Shown: in pieces, positions 2,357 to 64,000 of the stretch
Layout of the letters: each line of letters starts with the position of its first letter
How positions within the stretch are numbered: the first letter of the stretch is position 1
NCBI GenBank assembly: GCA_026225055.1
Contig: JAMFSA010000047.1
Coordinates: 62,001 to 126,000, forward strand
DNA from: Mucilaginibacter xinganensis
GTDB lineage: Bacteria; Bacteroidota; Bacteroidia; Sphingobacteriales; Sphingobacteriaceae
Reading direction: 5' to 3'
DNA: 64,000 bases
Notes under the pieces: generated by a model
The model's database searches: none
What the model was told of the DNA's origin: nothing
The model's input: only the letters and a program-made list of their open reading frames with translations
Position numbers and translations under genes: made by a program

Positions 2357-3188
2357 AAAAAAGTAATAATGGTTAAAAATTCTTTTGATATCCGGACAAG
2401 TCTTACCTGTCGGGATTAATGGGTGAGTTTACGTGTTGTTTTTTTTATCATATGGATTATTAATTGGTTTATAAATAGTTAGAGTTACATTCAGGTTAAG
2501 AGGCCGTGCTCTACTGAAAGCGCCTCAAAAATGCCTTTGGGACATCGTTGATGTTTTCAGTCGATCGCGAAATCATTCAATGACCTGTCGCCATCAATTT
2601 TTTTGTTAAGTCAGTTATTTGATATATTTATTTATAATGGTTCTCCGCCAGGGATCGGTCAGTTGTGTAAAACTCTTGTTGTCAAACTTCAGAAATCGCA
2701 GGGACGCGAACTGTTCCAATTGTCTAAAATGTTCTTTCTAATGTTTAATATTTGCGTTTTTTATTTACGGCATAGATAAAGCCCATAAATAAATCAGATA
2801 TGCTTCGTTCAGGAAAAAACGATGGGCCTGATGTGAATGAATAGCAACTTTGGTACTTCATTGAAGAATTAAAGAACCCTGCTCACTATGGGATAAATAA
2901 GTAGTGCCTGCAGGGAGAAATGCATTTAGTGGCGGCCAGGTACGAGCCTGTACTAACATGCCCCTTATTTACGCGGTTTAGGTATTTTATAAAGAAACGG
3001 TGCTCCGGACGATTGTATTGATAAAGCCCTCATTACCCTTTCATGGCTCAACACAATAAACAATTCATAAGAAATTAGTCTAACCACGCACATTCACGAA
3101 GCGGCATAAATTATCCGGCTGCTAAACAGTATTTAATAAGTAAAAAATGGACAAAGCAAAGGGCGGAGCAGGCTGATTGACAATACAT
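2357..3188. other. Long intergenic region upstream of susC
   Basis: About 830 bases with stop codons in all frames and no recognisable protein fragment. It should hold the susC promoter and leader, but I could not place a convincing TAnnTTTG -7 motif on the minus strand. AT-rich blocks occur near 2440-2480 and 2740-2800. Nothing else can be assigned. Confidence 0.4.
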
Positions 3189-3233
3189 ACAATAGCAGTG
3201 CAGAGGAAAGTTGTCGCTCTGCATTGCTATTGT
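3189..3233 (-). terminator. Long hairpin just after the GH30 gene
   Basis: Inverted repeat with 17-base arms at 3189-3205 and 3217-3233, one mismatch, 11-base loop (ACAATAGCAGTGCAGAG / CTCTGCATTGCTATTGT). It begins five bases past the GH30 stop codon. No clear U-run follows on the minus strand, so it may be a processing or mRNA 3'-end-protecting hairpin rather than a classic intrinsic terminator. Confidence 0.65.
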
Positions 3234-3238
3234 TTACT

Positions 3239-4471
3239 TTAAAGTGATACCAATGTGGTTACACTGGAGGGTAAAAGATTGATGGCAAAACTGCCACCTG
3301 ATACGGTGATGGAATTAGCGGCAAGATTGGCCGTACTGGTTGTTGCATACCGGTTGAAACCGGTAACTGTTATCCCGCTATAGGTAAAAGGTTGGTATGT
3401 TGTCGCGTTATTTTGATTGACGATGACGACGACCAGCTTGGTCCCGCTCTTGTAAGCCGTAACATACACCCCGGTGGAAGGATTGTAGGTACAAGATATT
3501 TTACTGTAGCCAGGCCGGATGTACCGGGCGTATTGCGCCATTACATAACCAAGTTTGGTAATATTGCTGCTTTCGTCAATCGGGCCGTAGCTTCGGCGGA
3601 TATACCACCATACATATGCAGCCCAGCCTGCGTTCATGCAGTCGTTGATTTCCTTGCCTGCCGTCATTGCATTGTTCCAGTCATCCCCGCTGACACTTGA
3701 ATTGGTATAATGTTCAGTCATCCAGACCGATTTGCTGATACTCCCCAAGTTATACGGAGTGACACCGTAAATATGCCCGCAGACAAAACTGGTGTTCGAT
3801 TTTGCGGTAGCATTACTAAGATAAGTATTAATGAAAGTCTGGTCCATATTGAAAGGCTCGGGCGCCATTATTGGAGCGCCGCAATTAGTTCCCTGCGCCG
3901 CAACAAAATTTGCCACCTCTGTTGCTGTAGCTTCCATCCACCCGGACCCACTATAGTTAGGTTCGTTAAAAGGGCTGATGGCGTAGACCCCGCCGACGGC
4001 ACTGTTATAGGAACTTAAATAAGATGCATATGCGGCGTATGAACCGGTGTTCAGGTGGACGCCTGTCATCATGCTGGACGGTGCGTTCCATGCTGTTGCA
4101 ACCACTTTGGCGCCATAGCTTTTCGCGGCATCTATGGTAGGTTTTTCAGCTGCGAAACTTCCGGAACCGGTGCTGGGGACCATTACACGAAGTATGCTCA
4201 AGCCTATGCCGTTGGTGGTAGAAAAGGCCTCCGTTCTTTGGGTACTGGTTAAATCAGCTTCCCAGGCTAAAATACTCGCACCGCCAAATCCCTGGACTGT
4301 CTGTTGGACGGTGCCGGCATTGATCGCAGCTGTACCTGAAACATTTGCGCTTAAGGATGTAGCCGTACCTGCATGTCGCAGTTTCGGAGAATTTGGAGTC
4401 TCCGAATCATTTTTGGCGCAACCTGCAAAAAGCACTGCTGCGACCCATAAAGGAATTAGTTTTCTTTTCAT
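3239..4471 (-). CDS. GH30 (subfamily 8-like) glucuronoxylan endo-xylanase, lipoprotein
   Basis: Secreted endo-beta-1,4-xylanase that cuts xylan at (4-O-methyl)glucuronate branches; family role inferred from similarity. 410 residues with a lipoprotein signal (LFAGC), so probably surface-anchored. The TIM barrel starts at GFGGASILAWEADLT. The acid/base Glu is in SPFNEPN (about residue 169) and the nucleophile Glu in WMTEHYT (about 252). The segment VWWYIRR followed by GYVMAQYARYIRPGY is typical of the glucuronate-dependent GH30_8 enzymes, whose Arg/Tyr in this loop bind the uronate. A C-terminal beta-domain ends at VTTLVSL. It points the same way as susC and GH127. Confidence 0.88.
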   Translation of the reverse strand: MKRKLIPLWVAAVLFAGCAKNDSETPNSPKLRHAGTATSLSANVSGTAAINAGTVQQTVQGFGGASILAWEADLTSTQRTEAFSTTNGIGLSILRVMVPSTGSGSFAAEKPTIDAAKSYGAKVVATAWNAPSSMMTGVHLNTGSYAAYASYLSSYNSAVGGVYAISPFNEPNYSGSGWMEATATEVANFVAAQGTNCGAPIMAPEPFNMDQTFINTYLSNATAKSNTSFVCGHIYGVTPYNLGSISKSVWMTEHYTNSSVSGDDWNNAMTAGKEINDCMNAGWAAYVWWYIRRSYGPIDESSNITKLGYVMAQYARYIRPGYSKISCTYNPSTGVYVTAYKSGTKLVVVIVNQNNATTYQPFTYSGITVTGFNRYATTSTANLAANSITVSGGSFAINLLPSSVTTLVSL

Positions 4472-32642: not shown

Positions 32643-35600
32643 ATGAATTTGCTTATAGAGATACCTATGAACGATCGCGCTAATAGAAGTCCTTTGGGAC
32701 ATTGTTTAAGGGCCTTTACTGTTGCTGTATTATTAATTACTGTCAGTGCTTTATCAATGGGGCAGACGGTCGTAAGGCTCAAAGGTAGGCCAGCTGTCTA
32801 TAGCCAGTATAAAGTTGCCGGAAAAGCATTTATGATCGCTTCCAGCGGCGTTTCGGCACCGATCTTAGTGGACCCGGGAGACTGGAAGGGCGTTATACGC
32901 GCTGCGGGCGACTTTGGGGATGATGTCCGCAAGGTCACCGGCACAGCGTCCCAGGTTATTCAAGACGGTACCCTTGGTAAACATTCAGTTTTGGTGGGGA
33001 CTATCGGTAAAAGCCGGATCATTGATCAGCTCATCGCTGAAAAAAAAATTGATGTTACCTCTATAAGGGGCAAATGGGAATCTTTCCTGATCCAAACGGT
33101 AGATGATCATCTGGTCATTGCGGGGAGCGACAAACGCGGGACTATTTTCGGTATTTATGACCTCTCGGAAAAAATTGGGGTATCGCCCTGGTACTGGTGG
33201 GCTGATGTGCCCGTAAAAAAAAGTAAAAGCCTGTATGTGGAAGCCGGCCGATTTGTACAGGAATCCCCCAAGGTAAGGTACCGGGGGATTTTCATCAATG
33301 ATGAAGACCCGTCATTTGGGGGCTGGGCGCGTAATAAATTCGGCGGAATTAATTCAAAAATGTATGTTCATATTTTTGAGTTGTTACTGCGCTTAAAAGC
33401 CAACCTGCTATGGCCTGCTATGTGGGGCAAGTCCTTTAATGAGGACGACGTGTTAAACCCGGTTTTGGCGGATGAATATGGGATAGTGATGGGTACATCG
33501 CACCACGAGCCGATGATGCGCGCTCAGAAAGAATATACCGACAGGAAAAATGACATAGGCGATTGGGATTATACTACCAACGCCGATAACATCAGGACGT
33601 TTTGGACGGATGGACTGGAACGGAACAGGCACTTTGATAACCTCATCACCATCGGCATGCGCGGTGATGGTGACGTGGCTATGGGCAAAGGCAACGATGC
33701 GGACAACATGCAGACCTTGAGCAAGGTCGTCGCTGATCAACGCGATATTATCAGTAAGGTCTATCATCAGGACAGCGCCGAAGTTCCGCAGGCGTGGGCG
33801 ATATTTACTGAAGTACAGCGCTATTATGATGCAGGTTTTACTGTTCCCGATGATGTAACCCTTTTATTTTGTGATAACAACTAGGGGTATATCAGGCGAA
33901 CTGGCCCGCTGAAGGAACGGGAGCGTAAAGGAGGCCTGGGGATCTATTACCACATTGACATGAATGGCGGCCCCTGGAACGACCGCTGGATAAATACGAC
34001 CACCCTTCCCAAATTACACGAACAGCTTAACCTGGCCTATCAAACAGGGATTAACCGGGAATGGATCATCAACGTGGGCGACCTTAAACCTAAAGAGTTG
34101 CCTATTGATTTTATCATGCATTTTGCCTGGGACCCGGATGCCATTCACGCAAATGAGACCCGCCATTATACGGTTAAATGGGCCGGATCGATATTTGGAA
34201 AAAAGCATTCCGCAGCAATTGCCGATATCGTTTCGAAGTATGCCAAATATAATCTCTGGCGAAAACCTGAAACACAGGATCCGCGTATCTTCAGTTTCGT
34301 GAATTACCATGAAGCGGATCGCGAGTTTAAGCTATGGAGCAGCTTGGAAGGCCGCGCTGAAGCATTGGGAAAGGAGATTGCCCCCCGGGCCGTGGACGCC
34401 TATTACGAACTGGTACTATATCCTGTAAGGGCTTCTGCGGGCGTAGCCGAAATATATCTGGATGCGGGACGTAATAATTTATATGTAAAGCAGGGAAGGG
34501 TGAGCGCAAACTATTATGCGAAGCAGGCCCGGGATCTTTTTGATACCGATCAGCAGTTAAGTAATTTCTATAATGATACCCTGGCCGGGGGCAAGTGGAA
34601 GCATATGATGTCTGATGTTCACATCGGCTACCGGCAATGGTCCATGCCCCGCCAGAATCAGCTGCCTGAACTTAAGCAGGTGGTGCCGCTTACTGCCCCG
34701 GCAATGGGCGTTGCCGTTGAGGGCAGCGAAGAGGCCTGGCCGGGCAGTATGGCGAAAGCTGAATTGCCTGTATTTGACGCGCTAAATAAACAGCATTATT
34801 TTATCGACATCTTTAACCGCGGCACCGGTCCGTTTAAGTTTACCGCAAAAGCTGATCAGCCCTGGGTGAAAATCAGCCGGGCTAAAGGGACAGTCGATAA
34901 ACAGGATTTGCGGCTTAATGTGGACATTGACTGGAAAGCCGCCCCGGCAGGTAAAACACAGGCGATTATCGAAATTCAGCAAGGTAATATACAGGTGCCT
35001 GTGGCCGTTACGCTTATTAGCAGCACACTGCCGCATGTGAGGCAGCCTTATTATGGGGGCTGGGGAGAATTTTCCATTCCCGCGCAGCAGTTTAAGGTCA
35101 ATAAGCCGGGAAGGCAGGCCAGATGGATAGTCCTGCCTGATCTTGGCAGGGATGAGGCAGGCATGGGGATCGATCCGGTTACCGCCCCGAGTTCCACACC
35201 GGGATCGGCACCCGTACTGGAGTACCGCATTTTCCTGCCTGATACCGGCGGCACCAAAGTGTGCCTGGGTATTTTACCAACACAGGATGTAAACCCGCGC
35301 CGGGGGTTAAGAATTGCGGTAGCGATAGATGACCAGGTGCCGCAAATTATCGACGCCCGCAAAGGTTTTCATGACGAGTTCAATGAATATACCCCAGCCA
35401 GCCTGGCTATGTCGCCAGGGTTGAAGCCCTTGCCGCCATTAGGCCCGGATTATGCACTTGTTTCGCGCGCCAGTCCCCGCCGGAATGAGGTGTTTGATAA
35501 TTTAAGATGGCTGGACGTGGAACTGGAAGTGAAAAAAGCTGGAATGCACCAATTAAAGGTCTTTATGGTTGACCCTGAAGTAGTATTGGAAAACATCGTT

Positions 35601-35657
35601 GTCAATCCCAGCGACAGGTACCCGAGTTATTTTGGCGCGCCACCGGTGAAACACTAA
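32643..35657 (+). pseudogene. GH115 alpha-glucuronidase interrupted by one in-frame TAG
   Basis: GH115 removes (4-O-methyl)glucuronate from internal positions of xylan, complementing GH67. The track gives 32643-33884 and 33960-35657, but they share one frame. TAG at 33882-33884 falls in LLFCDNN*GYIRRTGP, where GH115 has Trp (DNWG), and the reading continues without loss through YYHIDMNGGPWNDRWINTT. Signal peptide ends at ALSMGQ (second Met at 32667 also possible). The full reading is 1004 codons, about normal with the C-terminal domain (RQPYYGGWGEFSIPAQQF). As for GH43 at 11204: nonsense mutation, readthrough or sequence error. Confidence 0.85.
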
Positions 35658-40138: not shown

Positions 40139-40397
40139 ACTTGTAAATTTAGATTTTAATTCGTTAGGAAACAATGCAGCGCACAATAAAAGAAAAGTAT
40201 AGCCCAACCTGGCACATTTTTACTACTCATGCAATGTTTTTTGGATGCTTTGCATGTATTCTTTATAACAGCAATGTCTCACAGGATGCTCAAAGTGGAG
40301 CCGGTGTGCTGGTTTAGATGGCCTGGCGATTCGTTGCATAATTCTGCATTCAGGTTTTCGCGGGCCTAAAATCTGCTATTTTCAACCAAAGTGTTAA

Positions 40398-40446
40398 ACA
40401 TTTGGACATTTGTGGCACATGAAGCAGCATTTTCAAAATACTTTTG
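40398..40446 (+). promoter_or_regulatory. GH31 promoter with candidate HTCS box
   Basis: ACATTTGG (40398) and GACATTTGTG (40405-40414) lie 34 bases before TACTTTTG (40439-40446), an exact TAnnTTTG. Same box-to-minus-7 distance as at 19107/19141. The leader to the GH31 ATG would be about 190 bases. Confidence 0.5.
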
Positions 40447-40645: not shown

Positions 40646-43186
40646 ATGGCAGATAACGGCGAAGTATTAGCAAACAACAACCATCTGAAGGGGGCCTTTT
40701 TTTGGGTGATACTGTTATTGCTGCACAGTTACTTACCATGTTACGGACAGGCAAAGCCACGGCTTTATTTATTCGCGAAGGAAAATAACGGTATTGTGCT
40801 GCACGGGAAGGATGAGAAACTGCAGATTGATTTTATTGACGCAGAGACTGTAAATGTGAAATACGTCCCTTCCGGCGATTTCAAAGACAACGGTACAGAT
40901 GTATGCGTCCCACGGCAGAAAAAAACTGTAGATTTTACGCTTCGCCGATACGCGGGGCTGATCACCCTGAGCACTTCGCGGCTAAAGCTGGAAATATCAA
41001 CGGTTTCCGGCAGCATAAAGTACTTTGACAGCGCAGGCAAACTGTTGCTTGCAGAGAATGCGCAAAACCCCCGTTTGGCGCAAAAAATAAAGTTAAACAC
41101 CAGCGTATTTGATGACCGGAATAGCAGGACTGAAAAAACGGCCAATGGGGATGTGGTAGTTGCCGATATAAAGAAGGAAGACGCCGCAGGTACCGCATGG
41201 AGGGTGAGGCAACAATTTACCTGGCAGCCGGGTGAAGCTTTATATGGACTTGGCTCGCACCAGGAAGGTTATATGAACCTGCGCGGAACCTGTCAGTACC
41301 TCTATGAATACAACCTTAAAAAAAGCATGCCGGTGCTGATGTCCAGCAAAGGTTACGGGTTGTTGTTCGATGCGGGATCAGCAATGGTTTTCCATGATGA
41401 CATTGCTGGCAGTTTTATGGATATGCTTGCCGTAAACCAGGTGGACTATTATTTTATGCTGGGGCCCGGATTCGACCAGGTCATACACCATTTCAGGTCG
41501 TTGACAGGTAAGGTCGAACTCCCGCCGAAATACGCTTTCGGCTATGTTCAGTCCAAAGAGCGGTATGTCGGTTCGCATGATATTGACAGCGTGCTCAATC
41601 GCTTCCGCTCTGCCCGTATTCCGCTGGATGTGATCGTTCAGGACTGGTTGTACTGGAAAGATGGTTTATGGGGCTATAAAAAGTTTGATGAAGCCAAGTA
41701 TCCCCAGCCGGAAAAGGCCATTGCAAATGTTCATAATAACCATGCCCATTTCATGTTATCCATCTGGCCGCAGCTGGCGGCAGACGAGGAAAAGGCCATG
41801 ACGGAAAAAGGATTTGTGCTGGGCCGGAATATATATGATGCCTTTAACCCGGCGGCCAGGAAGATGTATTGGGATAATTATGTGTATAAAAATTTATTTA
41901 TAAAGGGCGTTGATGCATGGTGGTGCGATTCCTCGGAACCCGTAGAGTTTGACTGGAACAGGGGGGGTAATGCTATCGCAGGTGATCCGGCTGCACGTTT
42001 CGAGAAAAATGTACAGCTGATGTCGGAATTGCTGGGCGCCATGAGGGTAAATACGTATTCATTGCACCATACCCAGGGAATTTATGAGAACCAGCGTAAA
42101 AGCGATCACGAAAAGCGGGTTTTTATTTTAACAAGAGCGTCTTACCCTGGGCAGCAGCGATATGGTACGATGGTTTGGAACGGCGATACCAAGGCTACCT
42201 GGGCTGATTTTAGCAGCTGGATACCCGGTGGCTTAAATTATATGGTGACAGGGTCGCCATACTGGACGATAGACGCGGGTGCATTTTTCGTACGCAGCCG
42301 GCCCGAATGGTTCGCAAAGGGCGAATTTCCAGGTGGCCTTGCTGACACCGGCTACCGGGAGTTTTACGTGCGTAACCTCCAGTACAGCGGATGGCTGCCG
42401 CTTTTCAGGAGCCACGGCAGCGACGTAGCGAGGGAGCCCTGGGCCTTCGGAGTACCGGGCGATGTGTTTTACGATGCCATCCTCAAGCAGATCAATCTTC
42501 GGTATCGCCTGCTACCCTATATATATTCTACAGCTGCCAAGGTCACCAACGAAGATTATACCATGACGCGTTCCTTGCTTTTTGATTTCCGGACGGATAC
42601 CAATGTTTATAACCTGAAGGATGAGTTCATGTTCGGCCAGTCTTTTTTGATTTGCCCGGTCATCGTGCCGATGTATTATTCACCGGGGAATAAACGCCTG
42701 GATAAAGTGGCGAAGGAGCGGGTGGTTTACCTGCCAAAAGGTGCCGGATGGGTCGATTTCTGGACCGGGAAACGATCAGCCGGCGGCGAAACCATTGATG
42801 CGGCTGCGCCTATCGATCATATTCCTGTATTTGTCAGGGAGGGTTCTATCGTCCCTATGGGGCCGCTGGTACAATACACCGCGGAAAAGCCTGCCGGTGC
42901 CTGGGAGATCAGGGTTTATCCCGGCGCTGACGGAAAATTCACCGTTTATGAAGATGAAGGCGACAATTACAACTATGAGAAGGGCCACAAAACCGCTTTC
43001 GACCTGTCATGGAACGACAAAAATCAAACGCTCATCATTGGCAAAAAAACAGGCGCTTTTAAGGGCATGGCCGCAACAAGGGAGCTGCATATAGTGATGG
43101 TAAAAGAGGGCGCCGGGACGGGCATAGCGGGGTTTGAAGGCAAAAAAATCACCTATAGCGGCCAGCCGCTGACTGTAAAATTATAA
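40646..43186 (+). CDS. GH31 alpha-glycosidase (alpha-xylosidase-like)
   Basis: 846 residues with a signal peptide after a hydrophilic lead (AFFWVILLLLHSYLPCYGQ). N-terminal sandwich, then the barrel: WQPGEALYGLGSHQEGYMNL, nucleophile Asp in DAWWCDSSEPVE (about residue 427), acid/base Asp in VWNGDTKATW (about 513), then the C-terminal beta-domains (MFGQSFLICPV, YEDEGDNYNYEKG). Removes alpha-xylose from xyloglucan oligosaccharides in its closest subgroup; alpha-glucosidase activity cannot be excluded. First gene of a group running through GH3, GH43, GH8 and the esterases. Confidence 0.93.
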   Translation: MADNGEVLANNNHLKGAFFWVILLLLHSYLPCYGQAKPRLYLFAKENNGIVLHGKDEKLQIDFIDAETVNVKYVPSGDFKDNGTDVCVPRQKKTVDFTLRRYAGLITLSTSRLKLEISTVSGSIKYFDSAGKLLLAENAQNPRLAQKIKLNTSVFDDRNSRTEKTANGDVVVADIKKEDAAGTAWRVRQQFTWQPGEALYGLGSHQEGYMNLRGTCQYLYEYNLKKSMPVLMSSKGYGLLFDAGSAMVFHDDIAGSFMDMLAVNQVDYYFMLGPGFDQVIHHFRSLTGKVELPPKYAFGYVQSKERYVGSHDIDSVLNRFRSARIPLDVIVQDWLYWKDGLWGYKKFDEAKYPQPEKAIANVHNNHAHFMLSIWPQLAADEEKAMTEKGFVLGRNIYDAFNPAARKMYWDNYVYKNLFIKGVDAWWCDSSEPVEFDWNRGGNAIAGDPAARFEKNVQLMSELLGAMRVNTYSLHHTQGIYENQRKSDHEKRVFILTRASYPGQQRYGTMVWNGDTKATWADFSSWIPGGLNYMVTGSPYWTIDAGAFFVRSRPEWFAKGEFPGGLADTGYREFYVRNLQYSGWLPLFRSHGSDVAREPWAFGVPGDVFYDAILKQINLRYRLLPYIYSTAAKVTNEDYTMTRSLLFDFRTDTNVYNLKDEFMFGQSFLICPVIVPMYYSPGNKRLDKVAKERVVYLPKGAGWVDFWTGKRSAGGETIDAAAPIDHIPVFVREGSIVPMGPLVQYTAEKPAGAWEIRVYPGADGKFTVYEDEGDNYNYEKGHKTAFDLSWNDKNQTLIIGKKTGAFKGMAATRELHIVMVKEGAGTGIAGFEGKKITYSGQPLTVKL

Positions 43187-52310: not shown

Positions 52311-54806
52311 ATGTACGTATTATTTAATAAAAAGCCGGGCATGCTGTTGCTGGCAATACTGGTATCGCTGAGCGTTCTGGCGCAGCAGGCGGATCGCGGC
52401 CTTAAGCAAAAAAATGCAATTGATGCCGCTAAACGCTATAAACTGTGGTATGATAAGCCTGCTGCGAACTGGAACGAAGCCCTGCTGGTCGGCAATGGCT
52501 TTATCGGCGCCATGATCTTCGGCAATGTTCAAAATGAACGCATCCAGCTCAACGAGTCAACTATCTGGGGAGGCGGCCCCAATAATACGATTGATTCGGG
52601 AGCAAAGCCATATATTACCAGGGTACGGTCCCTGCTGGCCGGGAAGCAATATGCGGAGGCCCAGGCGTTGGCTAACAGTAAACTTGGGCCGAAGGGAAAC
52701 AGCGGGATGCCATACCAGCTTGCCGGCAATTTGTACATCAGCTTGCCGGGAACAGACATCGTTAGTGACTACTATCGGGATTTGGACATAGGTAATGCTA
52801 CGGCTGTTGTCAGGTACACGATGAACGGCGTACACTATAAAAGGGAATATTTCACCTCTTTCGGAAGGAATGTGATGATGGTGAGGTTTACTGCAGATCA
52901 GCCGGGTAAGATCAGCTGTAAGGTGAAACTTCAGAGTCCGCTCAGATCATCGGTGACCATTAACGAAAAAAAGGAACTGGTATTATCCGGGTGGGGCAGC
53001 GATCATGAAAACCAAAAGGGGTTAATTAAATTTAATGTGCTTACCAAGGTCAAAAATTCAGGCGGCAGGCGCGTGGCTGATACTTCCGGCATTACGGTGT
53101 CACATGCGGATACTGCGGTGATCTATCTTTCGATAGCTACCAATTTTGTCAACTATCATGATATTTCGGCTGATGCGCTAAAGCGTGCGGAGGACATTCT
53201 GACCAGGGCTTCAAAAGATAGTTTTGATGCGTTGCTGCACAGCAATATCCGGTTTTACAGATCTTATTTTAACCGGGTAAAACTTGATCTTGGCATTAAT
53301 GAGGCCGCAAGACAGCCTACGGATTTACGGATTAAAAATTTTTCAGGCAATAATGACACCCAGTTAGCCGAATTATGTTTTTAGTTTGGCCGGTATTTGC
53401 TGATTTGTTCATCCCAGCCCGGTTCGCAGCCCGCTAATCTGCAAGGCATCTGGAACGGGGAGGTCAAAGGCCCCTGGGACAGCAAGTACACGGTTAATAT
53501 CAATACGGAAATGAATTACTGGGCAAGCGAGGTAACCCAGTTACCGGAATTGAGTACACCGCTTTTCCATATGATCAAAGATTTATCCGTTACTGGTAAG
53601 CCTGCCGCGCAAATCATGTACGGCGCGCGCGGCTGGGTATTACATCATAATACGGATATCTGGCGGATAACAGGTATAGTAGACGGGGCTTTCTGGGGTT
53701 TATGGCCAACTTCGAATGCATGGCTGTGCCAGCACCTCTGGGAACATTATTTGTATTCCGGCGACAAGCGGTTCCTCCAGGAATATTACCCGGTAATGAA
53801 AGGCGCCGCTGAATATTATATTGATGCGCTGCAAAAGGAGCCCGGGCATGGCTGGCTGGTTGTTTCACCCTCCGTATCGCTTGAGCACGAATATATTGAA
53901 GGGAAAGAACAGGTATCCGTTACAGCTGGTGCCACGATGGATAACCAACTGGTTTACGGACTATTTACTGACTTGATCAGGGCTGCTGCCGAACTCCACT
54001 TTGACCGTGATTTTGCAGACAGCCTGGCGTCCTACAGGGAACAGTTACCACCGATGCAGATTGGCCGGTACGGGCAATTGCAGGAGTGGCTGGAAGATTT
54101 TGACCGCCCGGACGACAACCATCGTCATGTTTCTCATTTGTATGGCCTGTTCCCGGGCAACCAACTGTCACCTTTTACGCAACCGCAACTTTTTGCTGCT
54201 GCAAAAAACTCGCTCATTTATCGCGGCGATGTTTCCACGGGATGGTCCATGGCATGGAAGATTAATTTGTGGGCGCGTTTGCTGGACGGCAATCATGCTT
54301 ACAAGCTGATCAGGGATCAGATAAAACCTGTTAGCGGTCATTCCGGCGGCAGTTACCCCAATCTGCTGGATGCCCATCCGCCTTTTCAGATCGACGGTAA
54401 TTTGGGCTGTACTTCGGGGATAGCGGAAATGCTGGTGCAAAGTCATGACGGCGCAATTTATCTGTTGCCGGCCATACCGGATGAATGGGAGAACGGCAGT
54501 ATTTCGGGACTCATGGCCAGAGGTGGTTTCAAGATTGACATGACCTGGGCCAGTCATAAAATAACAAAGCTGGTGGTTTATTCCTCACTTGGCGGCAATT
54601 GCCGCTTACGCATCAATCAACCTGTCAGCAGCGGAATGCTGACCGAAGCCCGTGGTACTAACAAGAATCGTTTTTACCAGGTCATGGATTTGAAAACACC
54701 GATTGTTAAAGAGAGCGGCAAGGACCTGACAGTCAACTTACCCAAAACCTGGCTGTACGATCTGGCAACAAGCCCCGGTCGAACTTATACGTTTATAACT
54801 AAATAA
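52311..54806 (+). pseudogene. GH95 alpha-L-fucosidase/galactosidase interrupted by one in-frame TAG
   Basis: GH95 removes alpha-1,2-fucose or alpha-galactose from side chains, for example in xyloglucan. The track gives 52311-53384 and 53397-54806, both in one frame. TAG at 53382-53384 falls in QLAELCF*FGRYLLICSSQPG, where Gln is usual (FQFGRYLL), so CAG has become TAG. The rest is complete: signal peptide (SVLAQQ), N-terminal NGFIGAMIFGN...LNESTIWGGGP, then NINTEMNYW, VVSPSVSLEHEY, HRHVSHLYGLFPG and FQIDGNLGCTSGIAEML. 831 codons in all, normal length. The third such amber break in the window. Confidence 0.85.
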
Positions 54807-56124: not shown

Positions 56125-57126
56125 AATTAATGGCTGGTTTATGTTGAAACAAAGCTAAATTAAAATAATAGTAAATACGGAGATGATATTGCGGGCGCCG
56201 CTCGCAGTGCGGGTTAATTTCAGGTTAAAAAGCTCTGTTCATCCATCTTTATAGATAACGGTGAATCAATGGGTCTGGAATGCGGTTTGTTTCTTGTAGT
56301 TGATATACAAATACTTATTTTAATAAGTGTGCCCGTTTTTAGCTTAACTCGATTGTTTTGTTAAAAGACAGACTTCCCGGACAGAGGTTGATATTTCTTC
56401 TATATTGAACATTTCGCACGCTATTTAAATGCTTTTGTACCCGTCCAGCCATTTTTTACTTCTATAATTTTACTGTTAGGTTAATAAAATTAATAGTGCC
56501 TAAAACATGGTAGTTGAATGTTGGCTGTTGTTTCAACGCTTGTGCTTACTACCATAGATACGTTTTGTTTTTATTAGCTATCCGCCCGCCTGCGGGAAAT
56601 GAAAATTTAACCAACTATATACGCCTGTTCAGACTTGCTTATTCATGTTGAAAAATGAAGCTGATATTAAACTCTTCTGTAGCCGGAACGGTTAGCGGTT
56701 TATTATTAGTCTTTTTAAGTCAGTATAATACTGTAAAAAGCTACCGGTACGCATTGCAAAAAATGTTAGATGGTGGATTTTGTTACCTTAAAAAAAGAGC
56801 TGATTAAGGCCATTATTTGTAATCGTGATGCCATGAACGTAGCATATGCGAAATTTAACAGGCTACTCACTGGGCTTTTGTCTATAACAAAAACTGCATG
56901 GGATTTGATAGCTTTTGTGGTTTCAAAAGGTGAGAATAGCATCATTGTTATAAATACCGGCCTGAAGTGGATAATAAATCATATTACCATTACCAGCATT
57001 GATGTAAAACCAGGTGGCTATATGATAAGCCTCCTTAGTCTATTCAGTTGCCTAACGCCTTCAATTCCAAATAACCAATTATTCATTGCGGCAAATTTGA
57101 TGCGTCGCGACTTAACCAATTTTATT
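56125..57126. promoter_or_regulatory. Long leader/control region of GH5, partly duplicated before the second GH31
   Basis: About 1 kb. Bases 56401-56480 align without gaps to 59137-59216 (about 70% identity), and the match extends to a start-codon-like ATTCATGTT at 56641-56650. This homologous ATG opens only a 16-codon ORF (56645-56695, MLKNEADIKLFCSRNG). The track start of GH5 at 56770 would translate the last 357 bases, but no domain is seen there. Confidence 0.5.
56401..56472 (+). promoter_or_regulatory. Conserved promoter block, copy 1 (GH5)
   Basis: ATTGAACATTTC ... CTATTT ... CTTTTGTACC ... CCATTTTTT ... TATAATTTTA. Matches copy 2 at 59137-59208 at about 53 of 72 positions with no gap. 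TAATTTTA (56465-56472) could be the -7 element (one mismatch to TAnnTTTG). Confidence 0.55.
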
Positions 57127-58830
57127 ATGAAAAAAACCTTAAATTATCTTTTATGCATCCTGGGAATCCTGACTTTGACAAGATGCAGTAAGCGCGAAAT
57201 TGCTAATCCAAGTGCTAAATCGTTTATGACAAAGAAAGGTAATAACACATTAAATTTAGCTTCGTATCCGAGTTACAATACTTCACCGCTAGCGCCCGAT
57301 CAAACAGGGATGACCAGTACCGCAGTCCAGATTGCTTCAAATATCACGTTAGGGATTAATATCGGCAATACCATGGAAGCTCCCGGTAACGAACAGGGAT
57401 GGGGAAACCCCATGATTACCCAGGCGCTCATTGACAATTATAAACAAAGGGGTTTTAACGCCGTACGAATCCCTTGTAATTGGGACTGGTCACATGTAAT
57501 TAATACATCAACTGAACAAATAGACCCGGCATGGCTCTCGCGGGTGCAGCAGGTTGTGCAATATTGTGTTAACGATGGTATGTATGTGATATTAAATATA
57601 CATTGGGATGGCGGATGGTTGCAGAGTAATGATACAGTCACCGCGCAGGCTGCGACTAATGCCAAACAAAAGGCACTCTGGGAGCAAATTGCAACGCAAA
57701 TGCGTGGTTTTGACCAACATCTGCTATTTGCCAGCACGAACGAACCTGGTGGAACGACTGCCGCAGCAATGAGTGTTCTGCTTTCGTATCATCAAACATT
57801 TATTAATGCGGTGAGGTCGACCGGCGGGCACAACAGTTACCGGACGTTGGTGATCCAGGGCCCCAACGGCGCTGATATTGTTGCAACTAACAATCTGATG
57901 AACACGATGCCAACTGATCAGGCATCCAATCGTTTGATGGTGGAGGTCCATAATTATACGCCTTACAATTTCTGCTTGATGGGCTCGGATCAATCATGGG
58001 GCAATGTTTTCTATTATTGGGGCTCGGGATACCACACCACCTTCGATGTTGCGCACAATCCCACCTGGGGTGAAGAATCGACGCTTAGCGGCTACTTCCA
58101 AATGATGAAGACAAAGTTTGCTAACAATGGCATCCCGGTAGTAATGGGCGAATTTGCAGTACAGAGCCTGAATCTTAAGGGAGATTCTTTAAACTTCAAC
58201 CTTGCTTCCCGGGCGTATTGGTATAATTACAATATGCACCTGGCATTCGCGAACGGCATGCTTCCTTTTCTGTGGGATACCGGGTCGATCATCAACCGGT
58301 CGACTTACGCGGTGCAGGATCAGCGGGACTTAGCGGCACTGGTACAAGGAACACAAACCGGCGGATCCGCGACATTTCAGGTTGGTGGTGTATACCAGAT
58401 CATCAACAGGTATAGTTTTAAGCCATTAGAGATTGCCGGTTGGGGCACCGCCAACGGGTCACTGGCGGATCAATGGGATTATCAGGCCGGTACCAACCAG
58501 CAATTTATAGTACAGAGTGCGGCAAATGGTAGCTATTTGTTGACACCTATGCATACCAGCGGGAAGTGTCTGGAAATCTATAGCTGGTCCGGCGCTAACG
58601 GCGGTGCTGCGGATATATGGAGTTACACCGGTACCGGCGGCGGTAATCAAAATTGGTTGATTCAGGCAACCGACAATGGCTACTATAAGATTATAAATGT
58701 AAATAGCGGAAAAGCCCTGGAAATTACTTTAGGAAACAATCCGGCAATTCCCTTCAGAAATGGTTCCGCGGTTGATCAATATGATTATAATGGCGGCAAA
58801 AATCAGCAATGGGCGTTTGTGAAAATATAA
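57127..58830 (+). CDS. GH5 (subfamily 4-like) endo-glucanase/xyloglucanase lipoprotein with CBM13-type lectin domain
   Basis: 567 residues from ATG 57127, which gives a lipoprotein signal (LLCILGILTLTRC); the track start 56770 is rejected for lack of a domain in the extra 119 residues. GH5 barrel: LGINIGNTMEAPGNEQGWGNP, FNAVRIPCNWDW, acid/base Glu in FASTNEPGG (about 205), VEVHNYTPYNF, nucleophile Glu in VVMGEFAVQS (about 340). C-terminal ricin-type beta-trefoil (about 420-567) with repeats ending NQQF, NQNW and NQQW. Likely the surface endo-enzyme for xyloglucan or mixed glucan; GH5_4 assignment is by motif only. Confidence 0.9.
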   Translation: MKKTLNYLLCILGILTLTRCSKREIANPSAKSFMTKKGNNTLNLASYPSYNTSPLAPDQTGMTSTAVQIASNITLGINIGNTMEAPGNEQGWGNPMITQALIDNYKQRGFNAVRIPCNWDWSHVINTSTEQIDPAWLSRVQQVVQYCVNDGMYVILNIHWDGGWLQSNDTVTAQAATNAKQKALWEQIATQMRGFDQHLLFASTNEPGGTTAAAMSVLLSYHQTFINAVRSTGGHNSYRTLVIQGPNGADIVATNNLMNTMPTDQASNRLMVEVHNYTPYNFCLMGSDQSWGNVFYYWGSGYHTTFDVAHNPTWGEESTLSGYFQMMKTKFANNGIPVVMGEFAVQSLNLKGDSLNFNLASRAYWYNYNMHLAFANGMLPFLWDTGSIINRSTYAVQDQRDLAALVQGTQTGGSATFQVGGVYQIINRYSFKPLEIAGWGTANGSLADQWDYQAGTNQQFIVQSAANGSYLLTPMHTSGKCLEIYSWSGANGGAADIWSYTGTGGGNQNWLIQATDNGYYKIINVNSGKALEITLGNNPAIPFRNGSAVDQYDYNGGKNQQWAFVKI

Positions 58831-58854
58831 GTTTGAATAGAAGTTTACGAACTG

Positions 58855-58894
58855 CAACATCTTTAAAGCTTAACTCAAAGCATTAGAGATGTTG
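58855..58894 (+). terminator. Hairpin after GH5
   Basis: CAACATCT / AGATGTTG, 8-bp stem with a 24-base loop, followed by TATTTTAATA. A weak terminator candidate 25 bases after the GH5 stop. Confidence 0.4.
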
Positions 58895-59136
58895 TATTTT
58901 AATAACTGTTTTAGAACAAAAATATATTGCCGTTTACAATGGATCCCTGTATATCCTTTTTTATATAATGTCCTTGATACCTGTCATGGGTTTCATCATT
59001 GGAGAGCCCCACATCAATGACGACCCGCGTTAAGAAAGTGCGTGAAAACATGAAAGGTTGTGAGTAATTCACGGGCAAGATGACTTTGTATTTGCGTCTT
59101 TCGTTAAAAAAAGTAAATCCCCGTGTGGCTTTTTGT

Positions 59137-59208
59137 CAAATTGAACATTCCATACTCTATTTTCTGACTTTTGTACCCCTTCTTCCATTTTTGTCTCTTA
59201 TAATTTTA
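59137..59208 (+). promoter_or_regulatory. Conserved promoter block, copy 2 (second GH31)
   Basis: Second copy of the block at 56401. TAATTTTA here is at 59201-59208, 172 bases before the GH31 ATG; in copy 1 the matching ATG is 173 bases downstream. The rest of 58831-59379 shows nothing recognisable. Confidence 0.55.
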
Positions 59209-59379
59209 TCGCCGGATCAATAAACCTAAGACGGTCTTAAAAATTGGCGGCTCAGATATTATAGGTGAAAAGGCGGTTGAAAATGCCTGCCCTTAAGCGG
59301 CATTCATTTTTCCTATTACAATTTGCTTTATAAAAATGTGCAGCAGCCAATGTAAATAAGCCGGTGTAACCCTGTATTC

Positions 59380-61758
59380 ATGTTAAACAAAAAAGCTATG
59401 TTAAATTCCTTACTGTCCAAAGTAGTGACAGCCATTCTATTATTCTTCATTGCAGCGATACCTGCAGTTAACGCCTCTGTTTTATCTTACAAAAAGGAGG
59501 CTAACGGGCTTTTATTTACCTTAAGTAACGGGTTGATGAAAGTTAAGGTCTGCAGGGAAGATATCATCGAAGTGAAATACACGCCCTTCGGTGAATTTAC
59601 CAGCAAACCTTCACTGATCGTAAACGCAAAATGGAACCCGCCCACCTTTAAGGTTTCGGAAAACGGGAACCAGGTTGTTATGATAACCGCAAAGCTGAAA
59701 ATCATCGTAAACAAAGTAACTGATAACGTTGCTTATGAAGACCTCCATGGTAATGAGCTTGTCTCCGAAGATCAAAAAAGCGTTACGCCAGCCACTATAG
59801 CCGGCATCAGCACCTATAATATCAGCACCCAATTTAATTCCCCGAAAGACGAGGCACTTTTCGGCCTGGGCTGCCACCCGACTGACACGGGGGCTATTAA
59901 CTATAAAGGCAGAAATCAGGACCTGGCAATAAAATATATGACCGGGGCTGTACCGGTATTATTATCTACCAGGGGTTATGGCCTGATGTGGGATAATTAT
60001 TCGGCATCAAATTTTTACGGTGCCGAGGCAGAAAATACCAAATTTAAATATGTATCCGAAAGTGGGAGGCAGGCCGACTATTACTTTTTTTACGGGCCCA
60101 ATTTCGACCAGATCATCAATCTGTACCGCACAGCCACCGGCAAGGCTCCAATGTTTGCAAAATGGGCATTCGGGCTGTTCCAGTCGCAGGACAGGTATAT
60201 GAGCCAGGATGAAATACTTTCAGTAAAGGACAATTACCGCAATAATCACATCCCGGTAGATGTTATTGTACAGGATTGGTATTATTGGGATCCGTTCCCT
60301 ATTGGTGCTCATGTAATGAACCCTGCACGTTATCCTGACCCAAAAAAAATGATCGATGAATTACATAAATCAAATATTCATGGGATGATATCTATCTGGC
60401 CTGTATTTGGCAAAGGGACTAAAGACTTTGATACCCTGAAAAAAATGGGCGGATTAACCAGCATTACCTGGGATAATGTTGTCAGCCATACATTTGATAC
60501 CTATTACGATGCGCATAATCCCAAAGCACGTGAACTATACTGGGACATGGCCCGCGACAGCTTAGTTAAAAGATATGGCTGGGATGCCTGGTGGGTTGAT
60601 CAATGTGAGCCGGATAATGGCCTGTTATTGGACGAACGCCGGAAAGCCGACTTTTGGACCGGGAAGGGTATTGACTATTTCAACACTTATTCGCTGGAGC
60701 ATTCAACAGGCATCTACCAGGGCTGGCGGCGGGATATCCCTAATAAAAGAGGCTTTTTTCTGCTCAGGCAGACCTTTGCCGGTGAGCAGCGAAATGCTGC
60801 GGTGATATGGACATCGGATATTTCCTGCTCGTTTGACGCGTTAAAAAGCCAGATACCGCAAGGCATCAATACCTGTGTATCCGGAATTCCTTATTGGACA
60901 TCTGACATCGGCGGATACCAGTACAACTGGACGGTGCCTGATTGGTCTAAACCGGAATTCAGGGAACTGTTTACCCGTTGGTTCCAGTTTGGTACATTTT
61001 GCCCAATTATGCGTATCCACGGCAAGGGTGAACGGGCCATATTTTCAAAGAATTGGGACGAAGGCACAAGGTCAATCCTGTTAAAATATGATAAGCTGCG
61101 TTATCGCCTGTTGCCTTATATTTATTCGCTTGCCGCAAAAACCACGCTTGATAATTATACTATGATGCGTTCGCTGGCATTTGATTTTCGCAATGATAAG
61201 AATGTATACAAAATACCAGATCAATATATGTTTGGCCCTGCATTTTTGATTAACCCCGTTACCGGAAAAGGTGAAACGGAAAGAAATGTTTATTTGCCGG
61301 GCGCGGGCCTGTGGTATAATTTCTGGACAGGTGAAAAACTTAACGGGGGTAAAACAATTAATGCTGCTGCACCGATTGATGAGATGCCATTATATGTGCG
61401 TGCCGGTTCTATCGTCCCGATGGGCCCTGAAGTGGAATATGCTACCCAAAAAACCAATAAGGTTATTGAACTGCGGATCTATCCCGGTGCAGATGGCCGG
61501 TTTACTTTTTATGAGGACGAGAATGATAATTACAATTATGAGCAGGGCCGGTATTCCACTTTTACATTCGCCTGGAATGATAAGCAGAAAGAACTAAGCA
61601 TATCGGCTACCAAAGGAAATTTTCCTGGGATGTTAAGACAGCACATCTTTAATATCATATTGGTTAACGGCCAGCATGGTAGCGGCCCTTTGGCCACTAA
61701 AGTTGTTGACGAAACGATTACCTATAAAGGTAAGGCAATAATTGTGAAAGTAAGATAA
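59380..61758 (+). CDS. GH31 alpha-xylosidase-like enzyme
   Basis: 792 residues, signal peptide (LLFFIAAIPAVNA). Barrel motifs: LFGLGCHPTDTGAINYKG, nucleophile Asp in DAWWVDQCEPDN (about residue 406), acid/base Asp in IWTSDISCSF (about 480), C-terminal YEDENDNYNYEQGRYST. It differs from the GH31 at 40646 around the active site (WWVDQCEP against WWCDSSEP), so specificity may differ. It shares a promoter block with GH5 and is followed by a strong terminator and HTCS-3, which probably controls the pair. Confidence 0.93.
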   Translation: MLNKKAMLNSLLSKVVTAILLFFIAAIPAVNASVLSYKKEANGLLFTLSNGLMKVKVCREDIIEVKYTPFGEFTSKPSLIVNAKWNPPTFKVSENGNQVVMITAKLKIIVNKVTDNVAYEDLHGNELVSEDQKSVTPATIAGISTYNISTQFNSPKDEALFGLGCHPTDTGAINYKGRNQDLAIKYMTGAVPVLLSTRGYGLMWDNYSASNFYGAEAENTKFKYVSESGRQADYYFFYGPNFDQIINLYRTATGKAPMFAKWAFGLFQSQDRYMSQDEILSVKDNYRNNHIPVDVIVQDWYYWDPFPIGAHVMNPARYPDPKKMIDELHKSNIHGMISIWPVFGKGTKDFDTLKKMGGLTSITWDNVVSHTFDTYYDAHNPKARELYWDMARDSLVKRYGWDAWWVDQCEPDNGLLLDERRKADFWTGKGIDYFNTYSLEHSTGIYQGWRRDIPNKRGFFLLRQTFAGEQRNAAVIWTSDISCSFDALKSQIPQGINTCVSGIPYWTSDIGGYQYNWTVPDWSKPEFRELFTRWFQFGTFCPIMRIHGKGERAIFSKNWDEGTRSILLKYDKLRYRLLPYIYSLAAKTTLDNYTMMRSLAFDFRNDKNVYKIPDQYMFGPAFLINPVTGKGETERNVYLPGAGLWYNFWTGEKLNGGKTINAAAPIDEMPLYVRAGSIVPMGPEVEYATQKTNKVIELRIYPGADGRFTFYEDENDNYNYEQGRYSTFTFAWNDKQKELSISATKGNFPGMLRQHIFNIILVNGQHGSGPLATKVVDETITYKGKAIIVKVR

Positions 61759-62025: not shown

Positions 62026-64000
62026 ATGCGCGTAAAATTTTGTTCTCTTCTTGCGGTTGCAGTAATTTTTGTATGCGTAAATGCATTTGGGCAGGGTAGC
62101 CAGTATCGTTTCTCGCACCTGGATGTAAGCGACGGGTTATCACACAATCAGGTTAACTGCATATTTAAAGATTCGGAAGGCTTCATGTGGTTTGGTACCG
62201 CATCGGGCCTCAATCGATTTGACGGCTATACCTTTAAGGTATTTAAGCATGACGGGAATAATAAAAATTCACTTTACGACGATTATATAGCCAAGATTTT
62301 TGAGGGACCGGATAAAAAATTATGGATATCGACCCGCAATGGGTTCTGCGTTTATGACCCTGATAAAGAGGATTTTAATAGTGATATGTCGTTGCTGTTA
62401 CGCGCTCTGAAACTTCCTGTAGGGCAAAATGTTACCAAGATATTGCAAACGAGTGCTATGGACTTTTGGTTTTTGTATCCTGATTCAGGCATTTACAGAT
62501 ACAATACCCTGACTAGGCAAACGAAACGGTATTATCACAGCACATACGTTATGCCATCTCTATATTCGAATTCGATTGCGGATATTACGGTTGATGCTAA
62601 ACGTAATATATGGATTGTATACAGTGACAGGACTGTTGAAATGCTGGATATTAAGACTAATAAAATCACCTATCAAACCAATGTTTTTGATACGGTGAGC
62701 AATGAGAAAAACAGCAGTTATTCATTAATTGTCGATAAAGATAATGATCTGTGGTTTTACGCGTCATATGGCGATCTGGGCATATTTTATTACAAGCCTT
62801 CAACTGGGGAACTCCGGCACATTGACAAAGAATCAGCCGGGGCAAGGTTAACTACAAACATCATCAGCAATATTATTGAGGATAACGATGGCCTGCTATG
62901 GATTGCGACCGATCACGGGGGCATAAATGTACTCGATAAACGGGGTTTCAAAATCACTTATTTACTGAACCGGCAGGACGACGCTAAATCGCTAAGGCAA
63001 AACAGCGCAACATTATATAAGGATAACCTGGGTATCATGTGGGCCGGTACTTTTAAAAAGGGAGTAAGCTATTATCATAAAAACATTATCAGGTTCCCGC
63101 TTTATAAGCATTTTGCATCAGACCCCGGCAGCCTGAATTTCGAAGATGCTGACAAATTTGTAGAAGACAAAGTCGGAAATCTTTGGATTGGCACCAATGG
63201 GGGAGGCCTGATCTATTTTAACCGCAAAACAGGCAAGTTTACCCAGTATAAACATGAGCCGGGAAATCCCGGCAGTTTGGCTAATGACATTATTATTAGT
63301 ATGTGCATAAGCGATGATCAGAAATTGTGGATTGGCACCTACTTCGGAGGGTTGGATTGCTTTGATGGCAAGGTTTTTACGCATTATAAGCACGACGACA
63401 AATTGGCCACGAGCATTGCTGATGACAGGGTATGGAGCATCCTGGAAGATTCCTCGCGCCGTTTATGGGTAGGCACCTTTGGCGGCGGTCTTGAGCTATT
63501 TGACCGGTCAAAAAAAACATTTTATCATCCATTTAAACAGTCCGATATAAGGTCCTCGATGGTGTCGTCAATCTTTGAGGATAAACAAGGCAATATTTGG
63601 ATAGGCGGTTTTTTGGGGATCGATGTGATATTGAAAAAAAACGAACGCGTGATCCATTACGTTTCGGACGGAAACATCAAAAATGGCCTGATCGACAATA
63701 CCATCAATAGCATTAACCAGGATCGCCGCGGTTTGATATGGATAGCGACGCCGGGTGGGCTAAGCATTCTGAATCCTAAAACAAACGGTTTTACCTCATT
63801 GACAACAAAAAACGGTCTGCCGGCCAATTCGGTGCTGTGTACGCTGGAGGATAATAAAGGAGCCATGTGGTTAAGCACCTCAAACGGATTAAGCCGCGTC
63901 ACCTTAACCCCAATAGCCGGCACATTTAATTTCCGCTTTGAAAACTTTGATGAGACGGATGGCCTTCAGGGCCGAGAATTTAATATAAATTCTGCTTTGA
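62026..64000 (+). CDS. Hybrid two-component system sensor/regulator (HTCS-3), 3' end outside window
   Basis: Absent from the ORF track because the frame is open to the window edge. ATG at 62026 gives MRVKFCSLLAVAVIFVCVNAFGQ (signal peptide), then FSHLDVSDGLSHNQVNCIFK, DSEGFMWFGTASGLNRFDGY and many Reg_prop repeats (LWIGTNGGG, LWIGTYFGGLDCF, LWVGTFGGG). The last residues, DGLQGREFNINSAL, mark the end of the propeller, so the Y_Y_Y, kinase, receiver and any HTH parts lie outside. The propeller type is the same as HTCS-1 and HTCS-2, but whether it ends in AraC or is a plain histidine kinase cannot be seen. Confidence 0.9.
   Translation, partial: MRVKFCSLLAVAVIFVCVNAFGQGSQYRFSHLDVSDGLSHNQVNCIFKDSEGFMWFGTASGLNRFDGYTFKVFKHDGNNKNSLYDDYIAKIFEGPDKKLWISTRNGFCVYDPDKEDFNSDMSLLLRALKLPVGQNVTKILQTSAMDFWFLYPDSGIYRYNTLTRQTKRYYHSTYVMPSLYSNSIADITVDAKRNIWIVYSDRTVEMLDIKTNKITYQTNVFDTVSNEKNSSYSLIVDKDNDLWFYASYGDLGIFYYKPSTGELRHIDKESAGARLTTNIISNIIEDNDGLLWIATDHGGINVLDKRGFKITYLLNRQDDAKSLRQNSATLYKDNLGIMWAGTFKKGVSYYHKNIIRFPLYKHFASDPGSLNFEDADKFVEDKVGNLWIGTNGGGLIYFNRKTGKFTQYKHEPGNPGSLANDIIISMCISDDQKLWIGTYFGGLDCFDGKVFTHYKHDDKLATSIADDRVWSILEDSSRRLWVGTFGGGLELFDRSKKTFYHPFKQSDIRSSMVSSIFEDKQGNIWIGGFLGIDVILKKNERVIHYVSDGNIKNGLIDNTINSINQDRRGLIWIATPGGLSILNPKTNGFTSLTTKNGLPANSVLCTLEDNKGAMWLSTSNGLSRVTLTPIAGTFNFRFENFDETDGLQGREFNINSAL

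Follow-up and report, generated by a model that had tools for sequence, protein, structure and literature searches.

The promoter blocks P1 and P2, which lie ahead of adjacent glycoside hydrolase genes in Mucilaginibacter xinganensis, are very probably paralogous promoters of a xyloglucan locus under the control of the hybrid two-component regulator HTCS-3, with the first of two GH31 genes lost and its promoter taken over by the neighboring GH5 gene. The stretch analyzed, referred to as the window, comprises 64,000 nt of assembly GCA_026225055.1 (contig JAMFSA010000047.1, positions 62,001–126,000, forward strand); the locus concerned bears the label L065. The features concerned are, in window coordinates:

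56401–56472, + strand: P1, HTCS-type promoter block, now before GH5 (53/72 identity to P2; position weight matrix [PWM] motif)
56412–56421, + strand: putative upstream half-site of P1, TTTCGCACGC (lag-21 self-similarity peak, motif columns 11–20 versus 32–41)
56433–56442, + strand: putative downstream half-site of P1, TTTTGTACCC, 21 bp from the upstream one (motif self-similarity)
56463–56472, + strand: −7-like box of P1, TATAATTTTA (TAATTTTA versus TAnnTTTG; conserved within the motif)
56473–56644, + strand: 5′ leader of the former GH31 copy, presumably untranslated (near-constant promoter-to-start distance in GH31 loci)
56645–56695, + strand: 16-codon ORF, the shifted start of the GH31 relic (TATTCATGTT repeat shared with the GH31 start, 59375–59397)
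56655–56807, + strand: 50-codon ORF beginning MKLILNSSVAGTVSGLLLVFLSQ, relic of the GH31 signal peptide (frame open in relic copies)
56737–57009, + strand: relic of the GH31 N-terminal domain, GH31 residues ~31–123 (HMM, tblastn)
57010–57126, + strand: upstream region of GH5 itself, conserved in relic-type relatives (alignment)
57127–58830, + strand: GH5 endo-xyloglucanase-like gene, probable lipoprotein with a ricin-type lectin domain (Pfam; start conserved in relatives)
59137–59208, + strand: P2, HTCS-type promoter block before GH31 (alignment to P1, PWM)
59148–59157, + strand: putative upstream half-site of P2, TTCCATACTC (motif self-similarity)
59169–59178, + strand: putative downstream half-site of P2, TTTTGTACCC (motif self-similarity)
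59380–61758, + strand: GH31 α-xylosidase-like gene (Pfam; nearest solved relatives)
62026–64000, + strand: HTCS-3, hybrid two-component regulator of 1,399 aa, continuing past the window end (ORF on L065)

A single HTCS-3 chain contains the full set of HTCS domains (propeller, Y_Y_Y, HisKA, HATPase, receiver and AraC-type HTH), and its gene directly follows GH31, adjoining its putative targets. The nearest solved relatives of the GH31 protein are α-xylosidases, including BoGH31A; GH5 is closest to Cel5D, with the Bacteroides enzyme 3zmr also near. Together, these assignments make the target set read as xyloglucan breakdown with side-chain removal. Two other hydrolase genes in the window, GH115 (32643–35657) and GH95 (52311–54806), are each split into two adjacent ORFs (413 + 565 aa and 357 + 469 aa, respectively) by a frameshift or sequencing error.

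As a sequence-only reading of this DNA had claimed, P1 and P2 align without a gap at 53 of 72 positions (74%). Comparison of 56390–56700 with 59126–59440 gave a local score of 406, while 1,000 dinucleotide shuffles reached a mean of 174 and a maximum of 267. The distance separating the end of each block from the first base of the ATG, given in that reading as 173 and 172 bases, is the same in our analysis (ATGs at 56645 and 59380); the 16-codon ORF is present, and the conserved GH5 start lies 482 bases beyond the ATG at 56645, where about 480 had been stated. A search for the motif elsewhere in the same genome returned P1 and P2 as the sole two places by BLAST and pattern search, a scan in which weak sites could be missed, and at a PWM score of at least 5 neither the window nor the region preceding the TonB-receptor gene of L065 yielded a further copy. 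Scans for E. coli-type promoters and terminators gave no more matches than chance. Between HTCS-3 and the TonB-receptor gene (L065:11180–11830), a lone TTTTGAACATTTGG resembles the first part of the motif and lacks the 21-bp repeat. Upstream of the first GH31 of the window (40390–40425) lies AAACATTTGGACATTTGTGGC, the other box of the earlier reading, which does not match the P1/P2 motif.

A recent duplication in the strain itself was considered as the origin of the pair and rejected, with a mean within-genome identity of 0.815 and between-genome identities of 0.815–0.829. The two-promoter arrangement is common to nine of the examined genomes and thus is not recent. Furthermore, copies of P1 and P2 fail to separate cleanly into two clusters, so exchange is part of their history.

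Judged by sequence similarity, the long GH5 leader is not a designed leader: 56645–57009 is the relic, broken by frameshifts, of the N-terminal end of another GH31 copy. Downstream of the conserved ATG and read in shifting frames, it corresponds to GH31 residues 1 to ~123 and is collinear with the start of that gene. The signal peptide of the relic begins at the second ATG (56655), and the N-terminal domain, frameshifted with respect to the signal peptide and in the frame of GH5, runs to ~57009. An HMM detected the relic with 33.8 bits (i-E 1.4e-9), compared with 8.0 bits for the best of 1,980 shuffled leaders, and tblastn with 45.1 bits, compared with at most 22.7 for shuffled sequence. The relic resembles the neighboring GH31 and combines significant collinear similarity with frame disruption, as is characteristic of a pseudogene relic; the other GH31 of the window (40646–43186), tried as a source, gave no match. 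The 16-codon ORF, which the sequence-only reading had offered as a possible leader peptide, would instead be the shifted start of the relic, in a frame different from that of the relic signal peptide; a leader-peptide role is not supported. A mechanically called ORF joins GH5 in frame from 56770, and its first 119 codons are not GH5; this start was rejected, as the extension is GH31-derived.

Relatives show the relic in several states of reduction. L081 retains a longer open GH31 fragment (84.3 bits in tblastn), alignments reveal nested deletions in L080, L066/L076 and L070/L101, and in L067, L068 and L078 the relic is lost entirely while promoter and GH5 are kept. Leaders of L073 and L084 align to the GH31 head and then to the GH5 upstream region; in L084, ~60 bases from near the GH31 end lie between the two, a deletion scar. 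Four genomes (L087, L089, L090 and L091) possess the intact order promoter-GH31-GH5-HTCS-3. On the minus strand of L069 (~1418–3500), the promoter is followed by a GH31 N-terminal relic, a GH5 N-terminal relic (~51 codons, then a stop) and an intact GH27-type gene, and a GH5 relic also stands before the same GH27-type gene in L095 and L096. The GH31 gene of L067 is interrupted near residue 446 and HTCS-3 of L081 is split into two overlapping ORFs.

The intact gene order in four genomes, together with the head-plus-tail scars, makes deletion a simpler route than insertion. Alternatively, recombination could have placed GH5 and its own upstream region inside a second GH31 copy that followed the promoter, as might be suggested by the window clade retaining the GH31 head alone, with no recognizable tail, and by the recombination of leaders and GH5 genes elsewhere; given the intact loci and the scars in other genomes, however, we regard such an insertion as improbable. 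We therefore consider it most likely, from the sequence comparisons, that GH5 inherited its promoter when a GH31 was deleted, and infer deletion rather than insertion in the lineage of the window as well. The earlier interpretation is thus partly supported: the promoter before GH5 does appear to be a duplicate of GH31 origin, but insertion of GH5 behind it is not favored over loss of GH31.

Based on these comparisons, we suggest the following history. P1 and P2 would originally each have driven a GH31 α-xylosidase gene. The first GH31 would then have been deleted and decayed, leaving its promoter, leader, start codon and an N-terminal piece (56473–57009) as remnants. GH5, the gene next after GH31 in the ancestral-looking operon, would now be read from P1 through a ~650-base leader. 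HTCS-3 would bind the direct repeat TTTYGTACYC, spaced by 21 bp and situated just upstream of the core promoter, and thereby switch on both promoters.

Passive decay does not account for everything seen in the leader. Between L065 and L076 it is 85% identical and the relic 88%, compared with 68% for the spacer between GH5 and P2 and 65% for GH5 fourfold sites; a leader more conserved than synonymous sites and the neighboring spacer is not what pure decay predicts. The GH31 relic could thus have been kept as a functional leader, either as a signal-peptide ORF (56655–56807) or as a leader RNA tuning GH5 translation. In line with such a role, the relic signal-peptide frame is open over 21 codons in 8/8 copies compared, its pN/pS is 0.49 versus 1.06 and 1.15 in the other frames, and the relic ORF overlaps the GH5 start in L070, L081, L098, L137 and L146 and shares the reading frame of GH5 in L066, L074 and L135. 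Constraint on the relic ORF, tested through likelihoods only, is suggestive for all 14 sequences (p = 0.006), a comparison that may reach back to a period in which the GH31 copy was intact. It is weak in the clade with one shared deletion, where the signal should be cleanest (p = 0.04–0.07), and not significant in the clade of the window (p = 0.27). The window copy is, moreover, frameshifted after ~50 codons, and L067, L068 and L078 maintain promoter and GH5 without any relic. Recombination of leaders independently of GH5 is also seen (L070 and L101 are 82% identical in the leader and 43% at fourfold sites), recombination itself raises identity, and relic types are scattered over the GH5 tree. 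An RNA element was rejected: the fold z-score of the leader was −0.84, no consensus pairs emerged across 11 leaders, and Rfam returned no family, only a sub-threshold snoRNA match (E 0.5). On balance, retention as a functional leader is unlikely. Its more specific form, in which the relic of the deleted hydrolase would be kept as a signal-peptide upstream ORF of 50–110 codons to which xyloglucanase translation is coupled or by which it is tuned, with promoter and relic moving between genes as a module, is speculative and unlikely; a literature search on relic-type upstream ORFs found nothing relevant.

In Mucilaginibacter, the genus searched, chosen from the named relatives, 26/150 genomes contain a copy of the block, in most cases upstream of genes for a GH31 α-xylosidase, a GH5 endo-xyloglucanase or both, and beside an HTCS-3 orthologue; a position matrix for the 72-bp motif found 43 copies in 38 fetched loci. 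The GH31 start mostly follows 225–253 bases downstream of the block, while the distance to GH5 is more variable. Galactosidase, fucosidase or arabinofuranosidase genes follow other copies, the families being GH2 (two genomes), GH35/42-like, GH29 (fucosidase), GH51-type (arabinofuranosidase; the weakest site, PWM 22.7) and GH27. A further motif copy (L079:11132–11869) lies before a NUDIX/NrtR-type regulator gene, ~40 kb away from where G090 has its xyloglucan genes. The block is present in every genome whose HTCS-3 is at least 74% identical (20/20); this co-occurrence is in part trivial and weaker than an independent one, since promoter and regulator are linked and have a common ancestry. A block detectable by BLAST is absent from some genomes with an HTCS 69–73% identical (G023, G049, G051, G074 and G114); G114 carries a sister site. 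The block is probably an old regulatory promoter, its site being conserved upstream of genes of related function in several genomes that encode an orthologue of the regulator.

The core of the motif is a direct repeat of TTTYGTACYC, the two copies 21 bp apart (lag-21 peak, 36 sites), a spacing equal to the predicted average of 21 bp for HTCS motifs of Bacteroides (PMC3878776). Sister regulators (HTCS ~69–70% identical) encoded beside GH5 are accompanied by a related, coherently changed site (TATCTCC type) at a near-fixed 487–499 bases before GH5. Among the sequence evidence, this joint change of site and regulator subclade speaks most strongly for recognition of the block by the family of HTCS-3. 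Together with the 21-bp direct repeat, it agrees with the proposal of the earlier reading that HTCS-3 may recognize the block, which differs from the GACATTTGTG box. A −7-like box (TAATTTTA or TATTTTTG) is present, and by reading there is no good −33 TTTG at ~19–21 bp. TAnnTTTG is the −7 consensus of the phylum (Bacteroidetes), and a good −33 is often missing in activator-dependent promoters. HTCS-3 probably binds the block, with xyloglucan fragments as the presumed activating signal, and GH5 transcription is predicted to start near 56478. The −7-like box would also be compatible with a mobile repeat or a constitutive promoter of generic type, shared by the genes without regard to a regulator. 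This explanation is, however, highly improbable, as BLAST and pattern search find only two copies in the genome of the window, conservation reaches ~60 bases upstream of the −7 box, the targets have one pathway in common, and site and regulator subclade change in concert.

The arrangement resembles the predicted HTCS regulons of Bacteroides thetaiotaomicron, in which an AraC-type hybrid regulator is likewise encoded beside polysaccharide genes and paired with a direct repeat whose two sites are spaced by 21 bp on average (PMC3878776). It differs in its genus, in the half-site TTTYGTACYC, in the position of the promoters directly before GH31 and GH5, and in that the site was not found before the TonB-receptor gene of the same genome. 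BoGH5 and BoGH31A of the Bacteroides ovatus xyloglucan utilization locus are among the nearest solved relatives; here, in contrast, GH5 and GH31 stand under separate promoters of one type, with GH5 behind a GH31 relic. When an upstream operon gene is deleted, the downstream gene can inherit its promoter and a scar remains. To this general process of promoter capture, the present case adds a graded relic series within one genus, including the nested GH31 and GH5 relics before GH27 in L069.

A literature search on HTCS or xylan in Mucilaginibacter found nothing; the block provides a concrete candidate binding site for an HTCS of the xyloglucan type from a soil genus, and with it a small putative regulon. 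Gene callers may lengthen GH5 proteins here by up to ~120 residues that stem from the dead GH31 and the leader. The odd, long GH5 leader would be explained as a fossil, and the graded relics of its relatives would display, step by step, promoter capture by gene loss.
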